From IMG/VR virus record IMGVR_UViG_3300004097_000006, positions 1-63,569 of that record: a DNA stretch of 63,569 bases. One strand, written 5' to 3'. How positions within the stretch are numbered: position 1 is the stretch's first letter; every line of letters starts with the position of its first letter. The notes under the pieces are model-generated. The model worked only from the letters and a program-made list of their open reading frames with translations, made no database searches and had not been told where the DNA came from. Below are positions 8,522 through 20,669 of the stretch, piece by piece. A program made the translations under genes and the position numbers. Source of the stretch: a virus.

Positions 8522-11500
8522 TTAGAATGATGGCATATTGTCTTCAAAAAAGGCGTAAGTATCAGGTCCAAGTACGCCCGCGAAGTCAGAACGATAGATA
8601 TGCCAGTTCTCGCCAGCAATGCTAATGATAGCAGGTTTATTGGAGCCCAAGAACCCAACAAGAGGCCACGTAGCTCCACCCAAAATACTAGGATTTGTTC
8701 CTCCGTTCCAATAGTACCACAAGGCTTTACCTGGGGATAATTCCGATTCAGGTATAGCCAAGTAGGTGTGTCCACTAGTACCAAACGTCAACGTCTGACC
8801 TATAACAGGCGAAGCTAACTTATTAGGTAGAGCTTCTATAAACGCTTGCGTGTATGGCCAAATATCAGCACCTGACTCGTCATAACCCCAAGCAGCAGAA
8901 AGTCCACTAACTGGAATATCTTTAACTAGTATAGAGTGACTATCATCTAGTGTGGTGCCGTTCTCAGTGTACGTAAAACTAACAGTAACCGATGTATCAT
9001 TTCCTACGTCAGCAGGAGCAGAAAATATACCGCTGGAATCCACGCTAGCTCCTTCGGATGGACCTGCAAATGACCAGGTACCCGAAGTAGTTACTGCCGC
9101 AGTAGAGTTATCATCGTAAGTTACCACAGCAATTAAACTACCAGTCTGACCTTCATCTACCTCAGAAGGCCCTGATATCTCAACGCTAACAGGAATAGGC
9201 GCTACAGCTCTAATTGATATAGTGTGTTCGGCCGTCTTAGTAACCCCACCTATAGTATAAGTTGCTTCTAACACCATGTTCGAGTTTTCTGTCACGTTAC
9301 CTGAGGTAACAATGTTATCTGATATAGATCCGTAAGTACCTCCAGATAAAATCACGTAGTCAGAAGAACCTGTTACGACAGACGTAGTGGAGTCTTCAAA
9401 TGTTGCCGTTACAGTCAGAGGTGTAGTGTTACCTCCTTCATCCAACTGAGCTAGACCTGATAACGAAATACTGATTAATGGGTTCAGTGTGTTTCCTATA
9501 CTAACTACATGTGTGTCATCTACAGTAACATCGCCTTCCGTGTAAGAAGCGGAAAGGACAACACTACTAGGACCGGTAACAGTAGGTGCAGTAAAACTAC
9601 CTGCCGTTGAGAAGGCACCTGTGTCGGCACTTGCCGTACTGGCCGTAACCGTTTTGGTAGTTGAGTCACTCATTGTAACTTGGAACGTATAAGAAGTTAT
9701 AGACTCCTCATCCACACTAATAGGACCTGTAATTTCAATCGAGGTAGGTACTACATCAGCAACAATGTTAATTGTCTTACTAGCACTAACAGTGGTTCCT
9801 TCTTCTTCATACGAAGCGGATACGGATACTGTGGTGTCAGATGAAATGTCCATTGTATTAACAGTAGTGTTATTTAATACCGTAGCTTTAGATACATCGT
9901 CCGAAGCAAAATCAGTAACCGTAACCATTTTAGTAGTTGAGTCACTCATTGTAACTTGGAAAGTATACGTACTGGAGTCATTCTCATTTATAGAGTCTGT
10001 GCCCAATATCTCCATACTTGTAGGTACAGGTAATGCTTCAATATTAAGGTTGTGTGTGTCCGTAACAGAGACCCCATCCTCCTCATAAGAAGCAGAGAGT
10101 ACCACCGAAGTATCTGCGTCAATATCACCACCAGTAACCACACTGTTATCTGAGACTACGCCTGCAGCTCCATCAGAAGAAAAGTCAGCCACTGAGACTA
10201 ATGAAGTAGAACCATCAGAGTATGTAACTTCAAACGTAAACGTTTCTTGGTCACCTTCCTGTATAGTGTCTGCACCTATGATCTTAAGGGACGTAGGAGC
10301 CGCATTAGCCACGTAGGTCAATTCATGAGTGTCGCTAACAGTGACACCGTCTTCCGTGTAAGAAGCAGATAGAATAGCCGATCCGTCAGAAGTAATAGAA
10401 CCCACAGTCGCCGTATTATTACCTGATATAGAAACGTCCACATTATCAGAGGCGAAGTCCGTTACATCAACTAAAGACGTAGTTCCATCTGAATAAGTTA
10501 ACTTAAACGTATATAGCTCTACACCAGACTCAATCGATGTCGAAGAACCTAGAATCTCCAGAGATTGAGGTGCAGGCGCAGCTACTAAATCCACAGGTAA
10601 GGATGCACTGACTGTAACACCGTCTTCCGTATAAGAAGCAGTTAGGCCAGCTGAACCGTTAACCAGTATTGAACCTACAGTGGCGTCAGAATCCGTAATA
10701 ACTAAGTCTACATTATCAGAGGCGAAGTCCGAGACTGTAACCAATGACGTAGTTCCATCTGAATAGGTAACTTGGAATGTATAAGATTCGGTCTCACCTT
10801 CGTCAATACTACTGGCTCCTAGTATGGCTAATGACTGAGGGGCTGAGGCAGCAATTAAACCTACAGGGTGCGTAGCGTTAACCGTAATGCCATCTTCCGT
10901 GTAAGATGCGGATAGTTCAGCGGCACCATCAGCTAGTATTGAACCTACTGTGGCATCATCGCCTACTACTGTCAAGTCCGCATTATCAGAGGCTAAATCA
11001 GATACAGTAACCATTTTGGTACTTCCATCTGTCATAGTAACTTGGTACGTATAAGATTCGGTTTCACCTTCTCTAATACTACTGGCTCCTAGTATAACTA
11101 ATGACTGAGGGACGGGGTCTGCTACCAAAGTAACGTTGTGAGTATCTGTAATAGTATGGCCTAACTCCGTATAACTAACAGTCAGTATGGCTGAACCATT
11201 TGCATTAATATCACCTACTGAGGCAACTGAACCTGCGACTACCAAATCAACACTGTCCGAAATGAATGAGTCCAGGTCCTCTAAATCTAACATTCGAGTT
11301 GTGCTATCCGAATAAGTAACTTGGAATGTATAAGATTCGGTTTCACCTTCGTCAATGCTACTGGCTCCTATAATCTCTATGCTCGAAGGAATTGAGTCGG
11401 CAACAATATTAACAGTTAGTGAAGCATCAAGTAGAATACCGTCAACTGCAAATGAGGCTTCTAGGACAATAGACGTATCATTAACTATGTCTAAAGTAGT

Positions 11501-12973
11501 TAATTCACCATCCGTATTAAATATACCTGATGTAACGTCACTAGAAGTAGCGCCGTCTACCATAGATATATCCTGAGTAGTTCCATCAGAGTAAGAAACG
11601 ACGAAATCGTAGGTGTAAGTGCCTTCTTCCTGTACAGTAGCAAGACCTGTGATGGTCAAACTAACTGGAATTACTTCCGCCAGTATGGTAACAGGTAATG
11701 AGGCACTAAGTATAATACCTTCGATAGCTGATGACGCACTTAAAACTGTAGGGGTGTCATTAGTAATGTCCATTGCAGTTAAGTCACCGTTAATACCAAA
11801 TGTGGCAATAGGTGCTGAGCTACTAGCGGTATCTGGTGTTATATCCGAAGTTGCTCCATCGGAGTACGTCACACGGAACACGTAGCTGCCTGTAGTTTGC
11901 TCAGGTTGCGTCTCGTTACCTATGATTGCAAGTGATTGTGGAACCACTGGGGTAAATAGGTCTTTAACATTGATAACTAAGAGTCCATTAACGAAAGTCC
12001 CAGGATGGTACTTATCCTCAAGTTTAGCGTTAACGGTTATAGTAGTATCAGAACTTATGTCAGGAATAGTAATTACACCGCTCTGATCAATAGTAATACC
12101 TTCTGCGTTATTTTCAATTGTCCAAACAATGTCAGAAGGATTGATATCCCTAGTGTTATCATCGAATACGCCGTCGGCCTCTACTTGACCTGTAGCGTTA
12201 TCACCCAGCTCAACTGCACCTGAGGCTAGCCTCGCATCAACAGCTATGAGAGTAGGAATGAAGTACGTTACATCATCTTCTGTGGGAAGACGCCACTCAC
12301 CGAACCATTCGTTCGTACGATCAGGGTTATTCCCAGTTAAGAAGAACACGGAACCTTCTTCTGGAAGCTGAGAGTAATCAAATGAAACGAAGGTGTCTGT
12401 ATCGCCTACAGAGTCAGGATAGTTTTCATCGATAGAGTATTCTCCGTCGATGTGTACCATAGTCCGTGGCTTATCAGGATGTGTATGCTCTTTAGGTGTG
12501 CGGGCGCCTAAAAATCCAGGGTAGTCAAAAGTAACAACAACAGGGTCGCCGCCTTGGACTTCAGGTATCAATATAAGACCTGCTTTCAGAGTTGAGGCAG
12601 GCCCTAAAGAGAACTCACCTTCAATACCTAATTCAAATGGGTCAGCATCACTAATTGCTTGATAGTATTGGTCTACTACGTAAAGCATATCAAAGGTAGT
12701 GATTTCTTCCCACGTACTCTTTCTACCATCAGCGTTAGTATGATTAGTACGACGATATACTGTATTATACCAAGGGTCTTCTGGGTCACACACAAGCCAT
12801 AATACGTTGTAAGGTAATTGCGAAAAAGTAGGTTCGTCATAAGAACTTACCATCAAAAATGTTCTGTGATCTGGTTCAAGTTCGAAAGTTAGTGGATTAG
12901 TCTTGTCTACATTACGTAGATCTGATAAATACAAGTAGTTCGAAATGAAACTCTTTAACTGTTCATCTGCCAT
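8522..12973 (-). CDS. Giant adhesin-like tail protein with about 12 tandem Ig-like domains
   Basis: Two ATGs (12976 and 12973) follow AGGAG; the second has the better spacing. Residues 1-170 form a connector domain shared with the protein at 13000-13647. After one divergent copy, at least eleven tandem bacterial Ig-like (Big/BID type) domains follow from about residue 360 to 1345. Each has the signature 'P-x-S-(L/I/M)-x-I-x-G-x-x-x-I-x-E' and 'YSDGTT'. A distinct 130-residue C-terminal domain rich in Trp, Gly and Tyr caps the chain. Such chains are known in phage tail fibres and bind carbohydrate or extend a receptor-binding tip. The C-terminal cap is the likely receptor-binding part by position (inference). 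Repeat copies are also similar in DNA. Confidence 0.8.
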   Translation of the reverse strand: MADEQLKSFISNYLYLSDLRNVDKTNPLTFELEPDHRTFLMVSSYDEPTFSQLPYNVLWLVCDPEDPWYNTVYRRTNHTNADGRKSTWEEITTFDMLYVVDQYYQAISDADPFELGIEGEFSLGPASTLKAGLILIPEVQGGDPVVVTFDYPGFLGARTPKEHTHPDKPRTMVHIDGEYSIDENYPDSVGDTDTFVSFDYSQLPEEGSVFFLTGNNPDRTNEWFGEWRLPTEDDVTYFIPTLIAVDARLASGAVELGDNATGQVEADGVFDDNTRDINPSDIVWTIENNAEGITIDQSGVITIPDISSDTTITVNAKLEDKYHPGTFVNGLLVINVKDLFTPVVPQSLAIIGNETQPEQTTGSYVFRVTYSDGATSDITPDTASSSAPIATFGINGDLTAMDITNDTPTVLSASSAIEGIILSASLPVTILAEVIPVSLTITGLATVQEEGTYTYDFVVSYSDGTTQDISMVDGATSSDVTSGIFNTDGELTTLDIVNDTSIVLEASFAVDGILLDASLTVNIVADSIPSSIEIIGASSIDEGETESYTFQVTYSDSTTRMLDLEDLDSFISDSVDLVVAGSVASVGDINANGSAILTVSYTELGHTITDTHNVTLVADPVPQSLVILGASSIREGETESYTYQVTMTDGSTKMVTVSDLASDNADLTVVGDDATVGSILADGAAELSASYTEDGITVNATHPVGLIAASAPQSLAILGASSIDEGETESYTFQVTYSDGTTSLVTVSDFASDNVDLVITDSDATVGSILVNGSAGLTASYTEDGVTVSASLPVDLVAAPAPQSLEILGSSTSIESGVELYTFKLTYSDGTTSLVDVTDFASDNVDVSISGNNTATVGSITSDGSAILSASYTEDGVTVSDTHELTYVANAAPTSLKIIGADTIQEGDQETFTFEVTYSDGSTSLVSVADFSSDGAAGVVSDNSVVTGGDIDADTSVVLSASYEEDGVSVTDTHNLNIEALPVPTSMEILGTDSINENDSSTYTFQVTMSDSTTKMVTVTDFASDDVSKATVLNNTTVNTMDISSDTTVSVSASYEEEGTTVSASKTINIVADVVPTSIEITGPISVDEESITSYTFQVTMSDSTTKTVTASTASADTGAFSTAGSFTAPTVTGPSSVVLSASYTEGDVTVDDTHVVSIGNTLNPLISISLSGLAQLDEGGNTTPLTVTATFEDSTTSVVTGSSDYVILSGGTYGSISDNIVTSGNVTENSNMVLEATYTIGGVTKTAEHTISIRAVAPIPVSVEISGPSEVDEGQTGSLIAVVTYDDNSTAAVTTSGTWSFAGPSEGASVDSSGIFSAPADVGNDTSVTVSFTYTENGTTLDDSHSILVKDIPVSGLSAAWGYDESGADIWPYTQAFIEALPNKLASPVIGQTLTFGTSGHTYLAIPESELSPGKALWYYWNGGTNPSILGGATWPLVGFLGSNKPAIISIAGENWHIYRSDFAGVLGPDTYAFFEDNMPSF
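8930..11930 (-). repeat. Tandem Ig-like domain array seen at DNA level
   Basis: About eleven units of roughly 270 bases recur within the adhesin gene. Some copies share long identical stretches, such as ACATTATCAGAGGCGAAGTC at about 10440 and 10710 (as written on the plus strand). This similarity would allow unit gain or loss by recombination. Confidence 0.8.
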
Positions 12974-12999
12974 CATAATCTCCTACAGAATTAATTAAA

Positions 13000-13647
13000 T
13001 TAAGGAGCAGCGGTAATATCTGCTGCCATTAACTTGCCCCAGCCTGCGCTTGTAGAGCTAGTAGCTTTAAGTACTGAGCCTACGGCAGGAGTACCGTTAG
13101 AAATAGCGACAACACCTGTCGCATGTTGCAATTCAGTTGCAGGAATCTCTGCATGTTCATGAGGTAAAGGCTCACGCGCATCGTCTAAACGCGGGTCACC
13201 CTGAACTACGGCTACAGGTGTAGACCCATCGGGAGCATCATGTGAAATAAGTACAATTCCCATCTCTGTCGTAGATGCGGCACCCGCAGTCTCACCACTA
13301 CCTATAGAAGATAAATCGTCGGTATCGTAAAACTGCTCGTCCCATATATTCTCTAAGTAATAAAGAACTTCCCAAGTATGATTATACTCTGCGTTAAGTC
13401 CATCGGCATCTTTACTGACACGCTTTAGTGCATGGCGGTAAGTAGAACTATTTGGATTAAAGTCAATCCAAATAACGTTTAGTGGAAGAATCATATTCCA
13501 CGGTTCTTTTAAAGCACAAACGAACGTACTAGTTTTGCCTATGCTTGTATTGGTTCGACGCATTACCTGCGGTGTTTCTTCTGATAAGTTAGCTGCATCA
13601 GAAACTACTTCAAGTCCTGCTATATATCTCTGGAGTAAAAGTTCCAT
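13000..13647 (-). CDS. Short tail protein, paralogue of the adhesin N-terminus
   Basis: 215 residues. Residues 25-165 match the first 170 residues of the 1484-aa adhesin encoded next. Both have 'LP(L/Y)NV(I/L)W', 'YR...R...DADG/NADGR', 'TWE', a 'GLxLIP/GIVLIS' strand and a 'P(H/K)EH' motif. The last 50 residues (ATGVVAISNGTPAVGSVLKA... GWGKLMAADIT) resemble the short shaft-to-tip motif of phage tail fibres. It therefore looks like the minimal fibre or connector module without the Ig chain. Gene order (sheath, this gene, adhesin) suggests the shared domain docks both proteins at one tail site; this is inference. Confidence 0.7.
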   Translation of the reverse strand: MELLLQRYIAGLEVVSDAANLSEETPQVMRRTNTSIGKTSTFVCALKEPWNMILPLNVIWIDFNPNSSTYRHALKRVSKDADGLNAEYNHTWEVLYYLENIWDEQFYDTDDLSSIGSGETAGAASTTEMGIVLISHDAPDGSTPVAVVQGDPRLDDAREPLPHEHAEIPATELQHATGVVAISNGTPAVGSVLKATSSTSAGWGKLMAADITAAP

Positions 13648-13733: not shown

Positions 13734-15389
13734 TTAAAGTTCGTCGGCCGTTACGCGAGAACCAGTAGGGTTTATGTTGAAGGCGACATGCACACGCTTA
13801 ACTGCAATCGTAGGCGTATAGTATAGATCAATAACTAAATCGCCGTTGGCGATGATGTCAGGTGTATTGTTTACCTCAGAACAAACAACTTTGTACTCGT
13901 ATACGCCACGTCCTGTACGTATAGGATCCATGAACTTCTCAACCATCATACGTAATTCTGTACGCAATCGGTTATCATTTGGATCAAACAGTTTGTAACG
14001 TGCTGCTAAGCTTGTTGCTTTAAGTATGTAGTTTGTTAAACGGCGCACGTTAACCCACTGCAAAGCACTAGCCATACGCTGAGTAGTCTGCTGATCCCAT
14101 ACAACAAAACCTTGGCCGGGTATGTTTCTTATGCAGTTGACTTGGACTTCGGATAAAGAGTCACGGTGACCTTGGCCGTAATGAACGGCTAGTCCTCCAA
14201 CACTCAGGCGGCCTCGGTTAATACCTGCCGGTGCAAACCACACACCCCGTTGTTGATCAGTATAGGCCATTACACCCGCAATGAATCCCGACGGTGGTAC
14301 ACTTAGTTTCTTGCCGCTATTCGAATCCGTAACGTTTACATTAGGAGTATATAAGCCTGCGTAGGAGCTATCAAGGTTAAGTTCATTAACCTTGTATACG
14401 TTTGCGGCAGAGGTCTCTTGTTTATCTGATGGCATATCCAACACAGCAAACGCGTCACCACGTAATCTTGCCAGTCTTTCCATAGAACGATGTACTGTAG
14501 GATTAGCATAACCTGCATTGATAAGAATGTTTACATCAATTGAATCTATGTCTTCAAACAACTCCCAGGCTAAAGCTATTTGGTCCTGTGTCACTCTTAA
14601 TCCGTCAGAGCCTCCATCAAAACGCTCGAAAGCATCTGTAACGACATCAAGATTTTCACAATAAGGGTTATTAAGGACACGGATGTGTTTAGATCCGCTT
14701 GTTGGGTTATTAATAACGTCTTCGATAAATAGTTGGTTACCTTCGCCGTCAACCTGTTCCTCACGAGAACACAGGAACTTCTCTAAAGGAGCTTCAAATT
14801 CACCTCCTTGGTAGTTTAAGAACACTTCGACGTAAAACCATTTAGCATCGTGCCCATTGCCACGTAAGGCAACCCCATCAGGATTAGCAGGTCGGATGCG
14901 TACAGATATACTGTTGTTCCACTTGCCTGGATCGATAGAATAAAATGCAGCCAGTATTAAGCTTACACCCGGTGTAGCTGGCGTAAATTCTAAGTTGTCT
15001 TCAGGAGCTTCAATACCTAAAGGTCTGTTAGATCCGTCATCGAAGTTGTTCAAGGCGAACTTAGGGTTATGTGCATTTGGATCATCGGTTGTCCAATAAG
15101 CACCTGCACTTAAAGCACCGTTAACTACACGGACAACTTGAAGGCGTTTCGAAACATCTAGGAAAGGGTCTACGCATTGTGCCATAAATCCAAACTTGCC
15201 TGGAGTACCGTGACCAAACTTACTAGTATATTCTACGTGGTCTGTCACTAAAGTTGTCTTTAGTACAGGCCCTTTTGGAGCTTCGCCGACGATAGCACCT
15301 ATACTAGTAGAAACCGCAGCAACTCGCTGAGATAAATCTATAGTCTGGGTGTAGACGCCTGCAGAAGCGTTTGGTGATGCAATTGGCAT
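13734..15389 (-). CDS. Contractile tail sheath protein
   Basis: 551 residues with a very strong AAAGGAGGAAGG ribosome site. The N-terminus 'SPGVY/ASAGVYTQTIDLSQ ... STSIGAIVGEAPKGP' and the C-terminal segment 'VNVRRLTNYI' through 'EVNNTPDIIANGDLVIDLYYTPTIAVKRV' are typical of tail sheath proteins (T4 gp18 / FI-type family). The sheath polymer surrounds the tail tube and contracts to drive the tube through the host envelope. Length is within the usual 400-660 range. A terminator lies immediately upstream (15485-15510), so this gene begins its own late transcription unit. This is the best evidence that the phage is a myovirus. Confidence 0.93.
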   Translation of the reverse strand: MPIASPNASAGVYTQTIDLSQRVAAVSTSIGAIVGEAPKGPVLKTTLVTDHVEYTSKFGHGTPGKFGFMAQCVDPFLDVSKRLQVVRVVNGALSAGAYWTTDDPNAHNPKFALNNFDDGSNRPLGIEAPEDNLEFTPATPGVSLILAAFYSIDPGKWNNSISVRIRPANPDGVALRGNGHDAKWFYVEVFLNYQGGEFEAPLEKFLCSREEQVDGEGNQLFIEDVINNPTSGSKHIRVLNNPYCENLDVVTDAFERFDGGSDGLRVTQDQIALAWELFEDIDSIDVNILINAGYANPTVHRSMERLARLRGDAFAVLDMPSDKQETSAANVYKVNELNLDSSYAGLYTPNVNVTDSNSGKKLSVPPSGFIAGVMAYTDQQRGVWFAPAGINRGRLSVGGLAVHYGQGHRDSLSEVQVNCIRNIPGQGFVVWDQQTTQRMASALQWVNVRRLTNYILKATSLAARYKLFDPNDNRLRTELRMMVEKFMDPIRTGRGVYEYKVVCSEVNNTPDIIANGDLVIDLYYTPTIAVKRVHVAFNINPTGSRVTADEL

Positions 15390-15563: not shown

Positions 15564-16460
15564 TTAAGATTCATTCAAATCCCAATCCCAGTCGTCATCT
15601 CCATCTCCATCTCCCTCGGATTGAAAAGAAGTATCTATATCATCGTAGACGCTGCGGTTACTTGAAGCGGCACGAATATTCTCAATGGCCTTTTCAAATT
15701 CCCCTATACTTAGTAGTATCATTCTACGATAAGCATCAGTAGCAGGACCTGTACCAGACTTCCTATAAATAGAAGTGATTAAGGCATCTTCCGTTTGCAT
15801 GAAGTCTCTCCAGTCACGCTCAACCGAAGCATATACCTTTTTGTACTCAGACAGTAAAAGCAATAGGCGCTCTTTAGCCTTGCTTGACCTGCTCTTAATT
15901 TTAGACTTAGAGTCCTGTAGAGTAACCCATAAGGATTCAAGAGTTTCAAGGTCATTGGATTTGTACGCTCCATACGCCGTATGGAATGTATCAGTAAGTA
16001 TCGTACTCCCACCGTTCTTATCTGGGTGGCACAAGTTACTGATCTTTTTAAACAGTCGAGCACAGGCTTTTCTTGTTTCCCTACCACCTAAGTCAGGCTC
16101 TTGAGAACCAGTTCCTTCAATAAAGTCTTTATCAGAGCCACAGCCAATAAAATCCTCATCGTCCAGTAAGTCAGGACGGAAGGTACCTTCCGTCACTTGG
16201 GATTTAGCTTCGTGTAAGTAAGCTTCATGTCTTGCAGTCAAGGCATCTAGTTTTGCAATCTCTTCGTATAAAGATGGATTAAGTTCCCCGAACATGGTGT
16301 CGCGGAATTCTTGCTCCTTGTCCAAAGCATCCCGAAGGTAGTTAATGTCAGTCTTTATCTTCTCGATTTGAGTCTGTAAGTTTTGCTCAGTCTCAGGGTC
16401 TTCGTAAACTACCAGGGACGTGCAAGGGATTAATAATGGATTTTTCATAATATTGAACAT
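15564..16460 (-). CDS. J-domain (DnaJ-like) protein
   Basis: 298 residues. Residues about 128-180 hold a J-domain with the diagnostic HPDK at 145-148 ('ARLFKKISNLCHPDKNGGS', followed by 'FHTAYGAYKSND'), preceded by a long predicted coiled coil (about residues 22-90). After the J-domain there is another helical region, and the tail is acidic with alternating Asp/Gly (GDGDGDDDWDWD). J-domains stimulate Hsp70 (DnaK) ATPase. A phage copy could direct host DnaK to virion assembly or replication complexes, but the client is unknown. No Gly/Phe or zinc region of classical DnaJ is present. It is the last gene before a strong terminator. Confidence 0.8.
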   Translation of the reverse strand: MFNIMKNPLLIPCTSLVVYEDPETEQNLQTQIEKIKTDINYLRDALDKEQEFRDTMFGELNPSLYEEIAKLDALTARHEAYLHEAKSQVTEGTFRPDLLDDEDFIGCGSDKDFIEGTGSQEPDLGGRETRKACARLFKKISNLCHPDKNGGSTILTDTFHTAYGAYKSNDLETLESLWVTLQDSKSKIKSRSSKAKERLLLLLSEYKKVYASVERDWRDFMQTEDALITSIYRKSGTGPATDAYRRMILLSIGEFEKAIENIRAASSNRSVYDDIDTSFQSEGDGDGDDDWDWDLNES

Positions 16461-16508: not shown

Positions 16509-16697
16509 TTATTGTTGCGCAACTAGCTGTTGTATTGGCATATCAAGTAACTGTTTTAACCTTACACTTATTTGATTGCGTTTTGCGGCATGTTTCTTCA
16601 ACCAAGCTAAGTTATTACCAGAGCGACTGACTTGGCGTTTATGAAACGGTAAATCTAAGTCTCTATCCTCTAACAAGGTATTCAATTCGTCTAACAT
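16509..16697 (-). CDS. Small hypothetical protein, 62 aa
   Basis: A 62-residue frame with AGGGGAA upstream of ATG 16697. It is tightly packed between the neighbours (12 bases after one and 48 before the other) in the same orientation. The product is mostly helical and basic in the middle (KKHAAKRNQISVRLKQLL). No family recognised. Confidence 0.55.
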   Translation of the reverse strand: MLDELNTLLEDRDLDLPFHKRQVSRSGNNLAWLKKHAAKRNQISVRLKQLLDMPIQQLVAQQ

Positions 16698-16709: not shown

Positions 16710-17114
16710 CTATAAGGCATCTTTATAAAAATCGTTAATAGCCTCAGCAGCCGTGTACTCAAGGGAGTAGCGTCGGAGTAACAACATAGCATCGTGACTA
16801 GCACCATCATCCGATGAAGCAAGATTATTTTGAATAATTAAATTAGTAGCTTCTCGGATCCACAGACTTTCCGCTCTATCTATAGTCATGTACTTTAATA
16901 CAGGTGTTGGATTTTTAAGATTCAAGGCAACCATACAGCAAACACGCTGTCCATAACCTACTCTTATTTCTTCGAAAGTAGGTTCCTGTAACGTAGCTAA
17001 GGGGAGGTCGGTGGAGGTTTGTAATACCTCAGCTTCCTGTATGAAGGTCATTGGGACCCAGACACGTTTAACAAACCATCGGTTTTTAGTAACAGTTCTT
17101 ATAATTTTTTGCAT
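16710..17114 (-). CDS. Hypothetical protein, 134 aa
   Basis: 134 residues in a mixed alpha/beta pattern, with a basic N-terminus and a helical C-terminal half ('SLEYTAAEAINDFYKDAL'). No recognisable catalytic or binding motif. The gene is preceded by a promoter-like AAACTGTAAA element and a leader hairpin (17146-17190), so it probably starts a transcript that runs into the J-domain gene. Its ribosome site is weak. Confidence 0.65.
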   Translation of the reverse strand: MQKIIRTVTKNRWFVKRVWVPMTFIQEAEVLQTSTDLPLATLQEPTFEEIRVGYGQRVCCMVALNLKNPTPVLKYMTIDRAESLWIREATNLIIQNNLASSDDGASHDAMLLLRRYSLEYTAAEAINDFYKDAL

Positions 17115-17210: not shown

Positions 17211-17654
17211 CTAACCATCGCCTTTAAGCTCCTCTACGTACTCGCCTGTGAAGGATAGCTTCATACTTCCAGGCAGTTGTGCTTTGAGTACTTCGATGTC
17301 CTTAGTATCAGGCTTATACTTAAGCGTAATATGCAGAGTGAAATCAGGGTATGAATGAATCTCACCGTATAGTTTCTTGATAGCCATGTGTCGTCGATGT
17401 AGTTCTGCGCTCCGCATCTTCAATACAAGACCCTGCCATTTACCTTCTCCTAAGACCGCCGCTCCAGTAACCTGAGCAGTAAACTTGCGATTGGGTTTAG
17501 CAGTATACTTTATTTCGTCATCAGGAGCGTATAACATGGTGACGTGGTACTTGTCGGAGGGTAGTAAATTTTTGATGCCTAAGCTTTCAGCGAATTTCTT
17601 AATATCGTCTTTTGATTCTTTGGTAGGTTTCAATCCTATGTAAGTTCCGGTCAT
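17211..17654 (-). CDS. acb1: 2H phosphoesterase, Acb1-like anti-CBASS nuclease
   Basis: Start at ATG 17654 (MTGTYIGL), supported by GGAGAA upstream; 147 residues. Two H-x-T motifs, HVT at 37-39 and HIT at 108-110, define the 2H phosphoesterase fold. Beyond these the protein resembles T4 Acb1 (gene 57B, about 150 residues) along its length as I recall it: N-terminal 'GTYIGL', 'PSDKYHVTMLY', 'GLVLKMRSAEL.RRH', 'YPDFTLHITLKY' and a C-terminal 'EYVEEL'. Tyr5, Trp73 and the C-terminal Glu residues are candidates for the ligand-binding and catalytic residues. Acb1 hydrolyses cyclic di- and trinucleotide messengers made by CBASS systems, blocking effector activation. A tRNA-ligase or cyclic phosphodiesterase role is the alternative. 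The neighbours are small unknown genes, typical of an accessory cluster. Confidence 0.8.
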   Translation of the reverse strand: MTGTYIGLKPTKESKDDIKKFAESLGIKNLLPSDKYHVTMLYAPDDEIKYTAKPNRKFTAQVTGAAVLGEGKWQGLVLKMRSAELHRRHMAIKKLYGEIHSYPDFTLHITLKYKPDTKDIEVLKAQLPGSMKLSFTGEYVEELKGDG

Positions 17655-17679: not shown

Positions 17680-17964
17680 CTAGCCAAAATGGTTATTTAC
17701 GATTTCTGAATTAGCAATATGATTAGCATCTGATTCATCCATTGCCTTACGTAAAGTGTTGAAGTGTAAGGCATCAACAACTATTGACCTAGAGCCTCTG
17801 TACACAATGTATATGTGAACCAAGCAAGGGTAACTCTCAGGGTAACCCTCGATAGCAAGGTTCCTAAAATCATCGTCACCGACGGCATGCTTAATAGCTT
17901 TCTTCAAACCAGCTTGAGTTCTTGCCATATAGAACCCTTTACCTTGGTATTCAAAGTTAGACAT
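17680..17964 (-). CDS. Small hypothetical protein, 94 aa
   Basis: 94 residues, with AGGAG six bases before ATG 17964. The ATG overlaps the stop of the upstream 51-codon gene (TAATG), so the two are probably translationally coupled. An alpha/beta pattern is seen, with a central hydrophobic strand (CLVHIYIVYRG) followed by 'SIVVDALHFNTLRKAMDESDANH'. Not recognised. It sits directly upstream of the Acb1-like gene, 25 bases apart. Confidence 0.65.
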   Translation of the reverse strand: MSNFEYQGKGFYMARTQAGLKKAIKHAVGDDDFRNLAIEGYPESYPCLVHIYIVYRGSRSIVVDALHFNTLRKAMDESDANHIANSEIVNNHFG

Positions 17965-18119
17965 TACCTACTCCTTCGCTTACGCTTAGCTCTGGCTTTA
18001 CTTCTTTTCAATCGAGCTTTACGAGTTCTATGTACGTCCTCAAATTGAAAACTAGAACTAGCTTCCTCAAGCGCTTCTAAGGTTCTATGTGGTTGGTAAA
18101 GAATAGATTCAACTTCCAT
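17964..18119 (-). CDS. Small basic-tailed protein, 51 aa
   Basis: A 51-codon frame (MEVESILYQPH ...) ending in TAA that overlaps the next ATG as TAATG, the junction type used throughout this genome. Residues 1-30 are acidic to neutral, while the last 20 residues are almost all Arg/Lys/Ala/Ser (RLKRSKARAKRKRRSR). AAGGA lies upstream, a little far from the ATG. The basic tail could bind nucleic acid. The tight coupling to its neighbour is the main support for its being a real gene. Confidence 0.55.
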   Translation of the reverse strand: MEVESILYQPHRTLEALEEASSSFQFEDVHRTRKARLKRSKARAKRKRRSR

Positions 18120-18179: not shown

Positions 18180-18842
18180 TTATAAATCCAGTAAGGTCTT
18201 TTGTACCACGTTCTGTCCAGTTAAGTAAATAGCATTGTCCACTGAGCAATACAGCTTAGTGCCGATAAAAGTAACAGGGTCCATTGTACTACCCATTACC
18301 ACTATCCTAGGTATATCACTATAAATCTCAAGCAAGTCCCTAAGCTTCTCTAACTTAACATGTGAGGAGGTCTCCACGATGTTAGACATTATCAACATTG
18401 AAGGTTTGTCTTTTTTGCCGTCACGATAGGGGTCTTGGTAACTTCCTGTAAGTCTATGCCATACAGGAGATGCTTTGCCTATCTTGGACCTGGCTGACAT
18501 ACCATCATACTCCTCAATAGCTGCGGCGAATATATTTGCAGCAAGCATTTTACTCCTAGTGTCTGTAGGATAACTAGTGATGACAGTTAAGCCGCTCCCC
18601 TTAAGAGGATTGTCGAAAATCTTCTCAAGTGAAGTTTGTTGCTTACTTGATGAAATCTGGGAAGTCTTCATAGCTTCAAACTTAGGCTTGAAAGCTATGA
18701 TAGCATCCTCCAAGCGGAAACTATTCCGTCCCCCTAGTACCGATCTATCCAGACCGTGAGTCTTCATACGCTTTAACGTATCGGAATTGAACTTAGTGTT
18801 AATTAAGTCAATCTCATTGCCACTTTGTTGTTTTTCTGCCAT
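18180..18842 (-). CDS. Hypothetical protein, possible degenerate AAA-type fold
   Basis: 220 residues. The C-terminal half alternates strands and helices ('GLTVITSYPTDTRSKMLAAN', 'PSMLIMSNIVE', 'PRIVVMGSTMDPVTFIGTKL', 'NAIYLTG') in a way that recalls a RecA/AAA-like core. However, it has no Walker A GKT/S and no clear Walker B, so any ATPase relation would be degenerate. Residues 1-75 are polar and probably flexible. Lying next to the SF2 helicase gene, it could be a helicase accessory or loading factor; that is speculation from position only. Confidence 0.6.
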   Translation of the reverse strand: MAEKQQSGNEIDLINTKFNSDTLKRMKTHGLDRSVLGGRNSFRLEDAIIAFKPKFEAMKTSQISSSKQQTSLEKIFDNPLKGSGLTVITSYPTDTRSKMLAANIFAAAIEEYDGMSARSKIGKASPVWHRLTGSYQDPYRDGKKDKPSMLIMSNIVETSSHVKLEKLRDLLEIYSDIPRIVVMGSTMDPVTFIGTKLYCSVDNAIYLTGQNVVQKTLLDL

Positions 18843-18990
18843 ATCTATCCATCAATAAATTTATTAGTAGAAGGAACGTCACTAGACCCATAATAGTAGA
18901 CAACTGGTAGGGTAGTATGCCCGGGTCTAAAGCTAAAATTGCGGCTACGATTGAGAGGCCTAGGCACACTACTTGAATTAATCTGTACAT
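18814..18990 (-). CDS. Small membrane protein, two predicted TM helices, 58 aa
   Basis: A 58-residue frame whose ATG at 18990 overlaps the stop of the helicase gene (TAATG) and has GGGAG six bases upstream. Two hydrophobic segments (about residues 4-21 and 31-47) are separated by a short turn (LDPGILPYQ), and the C-terminus is basic (DRYGRKTTKW). This is the layout of a helical-hairpin inner-membrane protein. Its last 29 bases overlap the start of the next gene. Class II holin-like, superinfection-exclusion or membrane-anchor roles are all possible; the sequence does not decide. Good start signal and coupling support a real gene. Confidence 0.65.
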   Translation of the reverse strand: MYRLIQVVCLGLSIVAAILALDPGILPYQLSTIMGLVTFLLLINLLMDRYGRKTTKWQ

Positions 18991-20669
18991 TATTTTCTCC
19001 CGAAGCGTCTGCCGCCTACATTACCTATAGACTTAGTAGAGACGCCTAAGCCTTCATAAGGTAAATCACCATCACCTTGTTTCTTTCTACCGTATGTTAG
19101 TTTAGTATCAACGCCTTGTTCTATGTGTGACATGTCATTAAACTTATAGGCGTCACGGCTACCAGCCATTAGACCTTTTAGTTTCTTTATTGCCTGCTTA
19201 CTGAACTTATGTCCCAGATTTTTACTAAAGCCGACTGTCTTTCTAAAGCAGCCAATACTAAGTCCTATGTCTGGGTCAACAAACATTCTAACTATAGGTT
19301 GCTTCTTGCCGGGCATTGGAGTACATACTCGATTGGACTCTTGTTCCCAGTTAGGTTCATTCGCCATAGGCATACAATAGTATAGTGTGTCCCAACGAGG
19401 TATATTAATACCTAATTGAAGTAGCGGTCTGTATCCGACCACAACTTTAATCTTACCTGAACGTGCGAGGCCTACAACATCTTTACGTCTGTTCTTGGAC
19501 TTAGCACCACCGACAAACTCTGCCGCAATCTCTTTCCCTGCTCTAAGATTCAACTCAGCTACAAAATCAAGAATATGGTTCTTACGCTTCAAGGCTACTA
19601 CAACACTTCGCCCTGCTTTGACATCTCGCATAACACATGACATAATTTGTTCGTTTCGTTTCTCATGACCACTTAAAAAGTTTTCACAATAAACGAAGCC
19701 CGCAGGACCAGAGTAAGCACTCTTACTCTTTACACCCTCAGTCTCATAGATATAAAGCTTAGGACTCATGGCTTTAACCGAAGTCTCAGCGGTGACAGGA
19801 CCTACTAATTGTTCAATTAAAAACTCCTTACGATCTTTACGTTTAGGTGTGGCCGTAAGCCCAAACTTATAACGCATGGCTAACTTTGATATAGTACGGG
19901 AGAACTCACTGGCATTACCGCGGTGTACTTCATCTATAATTAACGTACCGAAGTTTTCATTCGCCCACTTAACTCGTTTAGCGCCCGAAGTACCTGCATA
20001 GAAACTCTGAATAGTACATAGGCCTATCTCAAAGTTCTTGAAGTCTGATTCTTTCTTGAGAAAGCCGCAAAGAGGTTTACCTGCTTTCTCTTCAAGCTCA
20101 GGTAAGTTAGTCATAGGAGGATTGTTATCACCACCCATGATAGTCTCGTAGAAACCATCTAAGAAGTCTTTCTGATCGGCTACTATCAGTACTCTACATC
20201 CTAGGGCAATACCTCCGGCAGTTCCCATAACGGTTTTGCCTGTGCGGGGTGCAGACTTTGTAAGTCCGTAGCCGAACTTTAGCCAGTTAGAGAACACTGG
20301 TTCTTGGTAATCACGAAGTTCGGCTGTAAACTTAACCTTATGCTTGAATTTAGGCTGTGAACGTAAATCTTTTATTGTGAAGTCTTCGAAGTCAATGCCT
20401 ACTTTCTTTTCAAGATTCAGCCTATCACCGATAGGGAACTTGTAGAATGATTTGCCTTGTCTCCTAACTTCTTTGGCCGTACATATACTACCTTTATATC
20501 CGCCATGCTCGCACTCGTCGCATACGGAAGAATGGCGTTGATGCCTGTATTCGCAATTCTTACAAATACTTTCCTCATACATGTGATTAGTGTAGGCTTC
20601 AACGGCCTCTTCTTCATCTATAAATTTCGTGGGTATGAAGATACCTTCACGAAGAATGATTTTAGCCAT
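18990..20669 (-). CDS. SF2 DNA helicase, UvsW-like, with N-terminal Cys cluster
   Basis: 559 residues. Cysteines at 36, 39, 50, 53 and 63 plus nearby His residues (CKNC, VCDEC, SIC) suggest a zinc-binding domain. The helicase core follows: Walker A 'APRTGKT' near residue 140, DEVH box near 248, motif III 'LTATPKR' near 272, and a motif VI-like 'EQESNRVCTP' near 443. This matches the UvsW/RecG-like SF2 group of T4-type phages. That group remodels branched DNA, unwinds R-loops and joins replication to recombination. The final Arg of motif VI appears as 'QESNRVC'. The stop overlaps the start of a small membrane protein gene. GGGAG precedes the start. Confidence 0.85.
   Translation of the reverse strand: MAKIILREGIFIPTKFIDEEEAVEAYTNHMYEESICKNCEYRHQRHSSVCDECEHGGYKGSICTAKEVRRQGKSFYKFPIGDRLNLEKKVGIDFEDFTIKDLRSQPKFKHKVKFTAELRDYQEPVFSNWLKFGYGLTKSAPRTGKTVMGTAGGIALGCRVLIVADQKDFLDGFYETIMGGDNNPPMTNLPELEEKAGKPLCGFLKKESDFKNFEIGLCTIQSFYAGTSGAKRVKWANENFGTLIIDEVHRGNASEFSRTISKLAMRYKFGLTATPKRKDRKEFLIEQLVGPVTAETSVKAMSPKLYIYETEGVKSKSAYSGPAGFVYCENFLSGHEKRNEQIMSCVMRDVKAGRSVVVALKRKNHILDFVAELNLRAGKEIAAEFVGGAKSKNRRKDVVGLARSGKIKVVVGYRPLLQLGINIPRWDTLYYCMPMANEPNWEQESNRVCTPMPGKKQPIVRMFVDPDIGLSIGCFRKTVGFSKNLGHKFSKQAIKKLKGLMAGSRDAYKFNDMSHIEQGVDTKLTYGRKKQGDGDLPYEGLGVSTKSIGNVGGRRFGRK

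Follow-up and report, generated by a model that had tools for sequence, protein, structure and literature searches.

A divergent member of the Acb1 family at an accessory site in a jumbo-phage genome

Does the small gene at 17211..17654 of the window (by which we mean the whole stretch of DNA analysed, a virus record of 63,569 bases) encode an Acb1-type nuclease directed against host CBASS, as the earlier note had proposed, or an RNA-repair enzyme of the LigT kind built on the same 2H fold? Here we present an analysis of its sequence, predicted fold and genomic site. The gene is a divergent member of Acb1, a known family, and lies at an accessory site in a jumbo-phage genome; named Acb1 proteins have already been recorded for this group of phages. 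The gene and its surroundings are as follows.

13734..15389, minus strand: tail sheath (PF04984, phrog_23)
15564..16460, minus strand: p298, a 298-aa gene adjoining the sheath gene (tblastn to NCTB E 1e-16, PaBG E 3e-5)
16509..16697, minus strand: p62, conserved, bounding the insert on one side (phrog_37224; tblastn to NCTB E 3e-14, Y3 E 1e-8)
16710..17114, minus strand: p134, an orphan downstream of acb1 (no Pfam, PHROG or PADLOC match at E<=1)
17211..17654, minus strand: acb1, Acb1-family 2H phosphoesterase of 147 aa (Pfam PF23474, AlphaFold2 model, aligned tetrad)
17680..17964, minus strand: p94, 94 codons, separated from the acb1 ATG by 25 nt
17964..18119, minus strand: p51, a short basic ORF of 51 codons, overlapping p94 as TAATG
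18180..18842, minus strand: phrog_20094 gene (annotated DNA polymerase), bounding the insert on the other side (tblastn to NCTB, PaBG, Lu11 and Y3, E 5e-34 to 1e-36)
18990..20669, minus strand: UvsW-like helicase, in conserved order (Pfam, PHROG, tblastn to relatives)

The acb1 reading frame runs on the minus strand from an ATG at 17654 to a stop that ends at 17211, with a good ribosome site, CGGAGAAAATA-ATG, directly 5' of the start. A longer version initiated at a TTG at 17687 was dropped because no ribosome site precedes that codon, and a scan for promoters and terminators gave a signal no better than that of shuffled sequences. The product carries HVT at residues 37-39, HIT at 108-110, GTYIGL at 3-8 and EYVEEL at 138-143, the four motifs that the earlier note had read there.

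Profile searches place the protein in the Acb1 family. PF23474, the Pfam profile of Acb1, matched residues 2-146 with 94.3 bits (cut-off 27; E 7e-27), which is far above chance: none of 14 control genomes rang with this profile at E<=0.001 and a single one, Bacillus subtilis, did so at E<=0.1, below the cut-off. A closer match to a LigT-type profile, which would have spoken against the Acb1 assignment, was not found, since all such scores stayed below their cut-offs (PF13563 2_5_RNA_ligase2, 26.4 against 27; PF02834 LigT, 16.8 against 23.3; and, in NCBIfam, TIGR02258 RNA 2',3'-cyclic phosphodiesterase, 14.1 against 65.7). Searched by sequence, the PDB returned FBB1 Acb1 (7t26, E 9e-9), followed by chains of the Acb1 of Burkholderia phage BCSR5 (E 0.022 and 0.55). 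The protein also matched phrog_755, labelled 'RNA ligase', with 112 bits; this looks like the Acb1 family under an older label, since the product of T4 57B is itself named RNA ligase in its RefSeq record. Many GenBank records give the family this label too. All 14 members of an alignment of the window protein with 13 relatives (A1) matched PF23474 at E<=0.01.

The earlier note had described a match to T4 Acb1 along the entire length. This stands for the profile, with its span of 2-146, but not for the pairwise comparison, where BLASTP against T4 57B gave 30% identity over residues 2-113 only, plus a chance second piece; in the comparison of pocket residues given below, the likeness stops at the lid. 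Divergence is also apparent from tblastn with the 147-aa protein: 1,421 of the 50,697 phage records were hit at E<=0.1 (1,243 at E<=0.001), in every case below 60% identity, and phage NCTB gave the best match, at 40%. Among the viral contigs searched there was one locus, belonging to the same phage; in the genome contigs no relatives were found, either with this protein or with the Pantoea domain described below as query.

An AlphaFold2 model of the 147 residues, built from 15 sequences, has a mean pLDDT of 80 and a pTM of 0.75, with weaker parts at residues 101-130 (block means 62-71) and at the C-terminus (68). Using this model as the Foldseek query against the PDB, ranks 1-5 were Acb1-type chains, with TM scores by query length of 0.66-0.73, and ranks 6-10 were other 2H proteins, with 0.48-0.62. 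VIA-align gave the same division among the rows listed: the first four were Acb1-type chains, with Z 16.0 for 7t26, then 15.6, and 15.2 and 14.6 for the BCSR5 phosphodiesterase (PDB 9q2g/9q2y, molecule named Acb1), ahead of PH0099 at Z 11.5 and E. coli LigT at Z 11.2. The BCSR5 enzyme, which is captured with open and closed lids according to its PDB entry titles, is 17-18% identical to the window protein in the VIA alignment. E. coli LigT and the archaeal and bacterial 2',3'-cyclic phosphodiesterase-like proteins share the 2H fold (Z 11.2-11.5) but are longer chains of ~165-185 residues. The predicted fold is thus closest to the Acb1 2H phosphoesterases, and profile and fold scores alike led us to reject identity as a LigT or 2'-5' RNA ligase, so that Pfam, NCBIfam, the PDB sequence search, Foldseek and VIA-align all bear out the earlier choice of Acb1 over LigT. 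The name Acb1 is already in use, in a collection of predicted viral structures, for proteins of PaBG, Dickeya JA29, RisingSun and Klebsiella Miami.

A role in RNA repair, in which the protein would open RNA ends bearing a 2',3'-cyclic phosphate, nevertheless deserves weighing, since Iyer et al. 2021 predict it for the 2H proteins of group 2.2 jumbo phages, including NCTB, Lu11 and PaBG (PMC7824862); the 2H fold permits it, and the 'RNA ligase' labels in PHROG and GenBank point the same way. The LigT-type profiles and structures, however, rank clearly below Acb1, and in the searches that follow no candidate partner passed its cut-off. RtcB (PF01139) was found in none of six records (the window, a longer 261,788-base record of the same phage, NCTB, PaBG, Lu11 and Y3), against 9 of 14 control genomes, while PF09414 gave only two sub-cut-off matches in the same six, against 8 of 14 controls; the PF09414 match in this phage reads, by its motifs, like an NAD-dependent DNA ligase. 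No tRNA gene lies within the window. A search with PF09511 (Rnl1) carries no weight, because none of its controls rang. Taken together, these observations make an RNA-repair role quite unlikely, and the window would add a divergent Acb1 to a jumbo-phage group whose 2H proteins were read as RNA-repair enzymes.

We therefore favour, as fairly probable, an Acb1-family enzyme that degrades the cyclic di- and trinucleotides of CBASS, a reading that leans on analogy with T4 and FBB1. By that analogy the HxT motifs formed by H37/T39 and H108/T110 would cleave, with no need for a metal, those cyclic di- and trinucleotides that contain adenine. The adenine would be held by Y5, Y102 and E141, the 2'-OH would attack the 3'-5' bond via a 2',3'-cyclic phosphate intermediate to leave a linear product, and host CBASS effectors would be kept off during infection. 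Reaction, substrate and CBASS target are all what we infer from the named enzymes, and weighing against them are the absence of W74 and W147, the ~30% identity to T4 and the weaker model at residues 101-130 and the C-terminus. Neither of the two sponge families looked for, the Tad2-like one and the Acb2/Tad1 hairpin, turned up in the window or the 261,788-base record, so that a broader anti-defence setting was not apparent. The Tad2-like sponge is present in PaBG and Lu11; for the Acb2/Tad1 hairpin, no match passed the cut-off in the six records, three weak ones lay in PaBG and Lu11, and the control rang in none of 14 genomes.

The residues that line the pocket offer a closer comparison. In Acb1 the catalytic tetrad is H44/T46/H113/T115, base stacking is provided by Y12, W74, F107 and W147, and E141 contacts the adenine (Hobbs 2022, PMC9117128); a C-terminal lid, residues 145-152, closes over the ligand (PMC9117128). 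We aligned 29 chosen, non-random sequences, consisting of the window protein, named phages, one plasmid and viral contigs. Of 35 loci from one search, 5 were included (L028, L040, L042, L048 and L049); L071 and L072 were unused, and neither the structure alignment nor the residue table contains L052. All 29 rows have HxT followed by HxT or HxS, with Thr at position 115 in 21 and Ser in 8. The window tetrad is H37, T39, H108 and T110, and Y5, Y102 and E141 fall in the Y12, F107 and E141 columns, Y102 being a Tyr for Phe; the positions of R94 and E138 of T4 Acb1 are aligned as well.

The other side of the pocket differs from that of T4 and FBB1 Acb1 (PDB 7t26/7t27, PF23474). Leu68 occupies the W74 column, with W73 near it in the sequence, and the chain ends KGDG at 147, inside the lid region, where it has neither Trp nor Phe, so W147 is missing. 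By this alignment the window protein is without two of the four base-stacking aromatics of FBB1/T4 Acb1, and it is placed in the PF23474 family and not in the narrower FBB1/T4-type lidded Acb1, since W74 and a lid with W147 are both absent. Of the comparison of fold and pocket with Acb1 suggested in the earlier note, the fold thus held, with Z 16.0 against 11.5 for the first non-Acb1 chain listed, while the pocket agreed only in part. With the lid and two stacking tryptophans gone, the ligand would probably sit less tightly than in T4/FBB1. W74 and W147 would, we infer, serve the second base, an assignment of our own and not one taken from PMC9117128.

Outright decay, with the protein kept for binding in the manner of a sponge or for nothing at all, would also account for a lost lid. 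We regard this as very improbable: the catalytic tetrad is complete, the residue that contacts the adenine and the ribosome site are both preserved, and the gene is identical in two assembled records, though these come from the same phage population.

How the lid is distributed in the family was judged from the 29 rows, in which the C-terminal alignment is uncertain (Voja6 was scored lidless despite a Phe in the lid column, and residue 74 of L048 is ambiguous). With that proviso, a lid Trp or Phe was counted in 16 rows and E141 is kept in 14 of these 16, against 4 of the 13 lidless rows, the window protein being among those 4. An aromatic at 74 accompanies the lid in 15 of 16 rows and is found in 3 of 13 without it, but the tree gives only one or two independent pairs, too few for a statistical test, and the association was set aside. 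The tree, built without the columns compared here and with 11 of 26 inner branches open, needs two changes to explain the lid trait. On it the window protein clusters with NCTB, Carin-5 and Yersinia GN1 (support 81/81, not starred); by these sequences it is part of a lidless portion of the Acb1 family, which the tree does not show as a single branch. The closest sequence, NCTB BN7874_181 (40%), is likewise lidless and shares the GKW motif found at window residues 71-73, but has Lys at E141 and Ser at T115. A search of titles and abstract openings found no published description of a lidless Acb1 branch; the BCSR5 structure work lay outside that search, and we claim no priority.

The missing lid raises the question of whether the lid is what limits Acb1 to small rings. 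The Acb1 pocket is reported to take di- and trinucleotides only, larger rings clashing, and T4 Acb1 not to cleave cA4; nine further Acb1 proteins each cut 3'3'-cGAMP and cAAA, their lid state being left aside here (PMC9117128). An open, lidless pocket could shift the substrate range, for example to cA4, or away from 2',3'-c-di-AMP to avoid Panoptes, an idea that the ring clash invites and that the joint loss of W74 and W147, with the adenine-side residues kept, would suit. Panoptes is a possible reason for a changed range because 2'3'-c-di-AMP is among the molecules that T4 Acb1 cuts, and this defence can be set off when the enzyme is expressed (PMC12657230). Expression of T4 Acb1 reduced colony formation with Panoptes, although deletion of acb1 from T4 was reported to be without effect on Panoptes defence (PMC12657218). 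E141, moreover, is kept as in T4, the loss of the lid may merely weaken binding, and only two changes on the tree are needed for the lid, the co-loss with W74 not being independently replicated. We accordingly hold a shifted range to be rather unlikely. Less likely still is the broader proposition that the lidless Acb1s of this phage, NCTB, Carin-5, Yersinia GN1 and several other large phages cut cA4 or larger rings and so oppose both CBASS and type III CRISPR signalling; in such enzymes the tetrad would be kept (with the adenine contacts, in the window protein) and an open second-base site would admit rings that lidded Acb1 cannot cut. Cleavage of CBASS di- and trinucleotides remains the reading that we prefer.

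What kind of phage carries the gene is apparent from a second record, IMGVR_UViG_3300028829_003504 (261,788 bases), which encodes the same protein at 100% identity. We compared the two records over the 12.4 kb around acb1 and at both window ends, and all of these were 100% identical; the two records most likely represent one phage population, and the window is therefore part of a jumbo phage (~260 kb). A short tandem repeat of 9-base units occupies positions 1-130 of the window, and the longer record continues with similar repeats, so that the low end of the window is probably an assembly break. The phage is a jumbo myovirus of the NCTB/PaBG/Lu11/Y3 kind, termed the 'Lupandier group' in the PaBG paper (PMC7412058). 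Identity of the sheath is 50% to NCTB, 46% to PaBG, 41% to Lu11 and 37% to Y3, and no DNA match to the 8000-32000 stretch of the window was found in the phage collection.

The order helicase, phrog_20094 gene, p62, p298 and sheath recurs in NCTB, PaBG, Lu11 and Y3, save that tblastn at E<=0.01 gave no match for p62 in the PaBG or Lu11 stretches and none for p298 in those of Lu11 or Y3. In the window, 1,482 bases holding p51, p94, acb1 and p134 are inserted between the phrog_20094 gene and p62. In Y3 just 10 bases separate the corresponding genes, and NCTB carries two genes at this site, one of them for a GTP cyclohydrolase. No p62 was found in PaBG or Lu11; there the phrog_20094 gene directly adjoins the one that follows or overlaps it. 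This variation supports the earlier note in calling the cluster accessory. The G+C content of the insert (40%) is nearly that of the window (41%), and thus there is no compositional sign of foreign origin.

Acb1 matches over the cut-off occur at other genome places in three of the four relatives, NCTB, PaBG and Y3; the same profile search gave none in Lu11 at E<=0.1. The NCTB gene lies ~70 kb from the NCTB sheath gene, and the window site is also unlike the T4 neighbourhood, gp1-57A-57B. Such differences of place between related genomes are what one would expect if a counter-defence gene were exposed to shifting pressure. The core genome of schizotequatroviruses includes an Acb1 homologue, which was detected in virions (PMC12028318).

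The two coupled genes of 94 and 51 codons that had been noticed upstream of acb1 do exist, with their TAATG overlap. The suggestion that they are defence-related fared less well, since no defence or anti-defence family of Pfam, PHROG or PADLOC was matched, and p51, p94 and p134 are without a Pfam or PADLOC match at E<=1. The PHROG match of p94 is at chance level (E 0.07), its single-sequence model (pLDDT 58) is too poor to serve as a structure query, and no solved relative was found in the PDB (best E 0.33). At E<=1, p94 matched 25 of the 50,697 phage records, the strongest with E 1e-11, and the 15 records listed are all >200 kb. In Klebsiella phage YC1 (252,505 bases), the only record with both positions listed, the Acb1 match lies near 1,000 and the p94 match near 207,000, so the two are not paired there. 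For p134 a single one of the 50,697 phage records matched, at E 0.5.

Other genes of the region gave minor observations. The p298 product has a sub-cut-off Pfam match to DnaJ (E 0.07), in a stretch that we take to be HPD-type J-domain-like. A 1484-aa tail protein (8522-12976) and the neighbouring 215-aa protein (13000-13647) align, each with its N-terminal part, to identical stretches in NCTB, PaBG, Lu11 and Y3, which suggests that the two proteins share a domain.

Acb1-like domains were also found within larger proteins. In Synechococcus phage Ssp-JY40 (L059:567-2426), a 619-aa protein encoded directly after the large terminase ends in such a domain, with HxT/HxT and a lid-like DW, and the C-terminus of the solved Pam3 portal protein (PDB 8hds) matches the Acb1 profile with E 4e-12; both domains are possibly virion-borne. 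Viral contig IMGVR_UViG_3300047089_000244 (L052/L055) has an Acb1 profile match of 35.5 bits inside a 1393-aa open frame. The Pantoea plasmid NZ_CP034366.1 (L056:2937-6053), a phage-like plasmid that encodes tail and lysis functions, carries the domain in a 1038-aa protein between odaE and ddrA, the sole Acb1 match among 72,556 plasmid records at E<=0.01. Finally, in Aeromonas phage AerS_266 (L061:1504-2363), an annotated anti-Thoeris gene and an annotated anti-CBASS gene share one base, the product of the latter being lidless in the 29-row alignment; this phage is an example of paired anti-defence genes.
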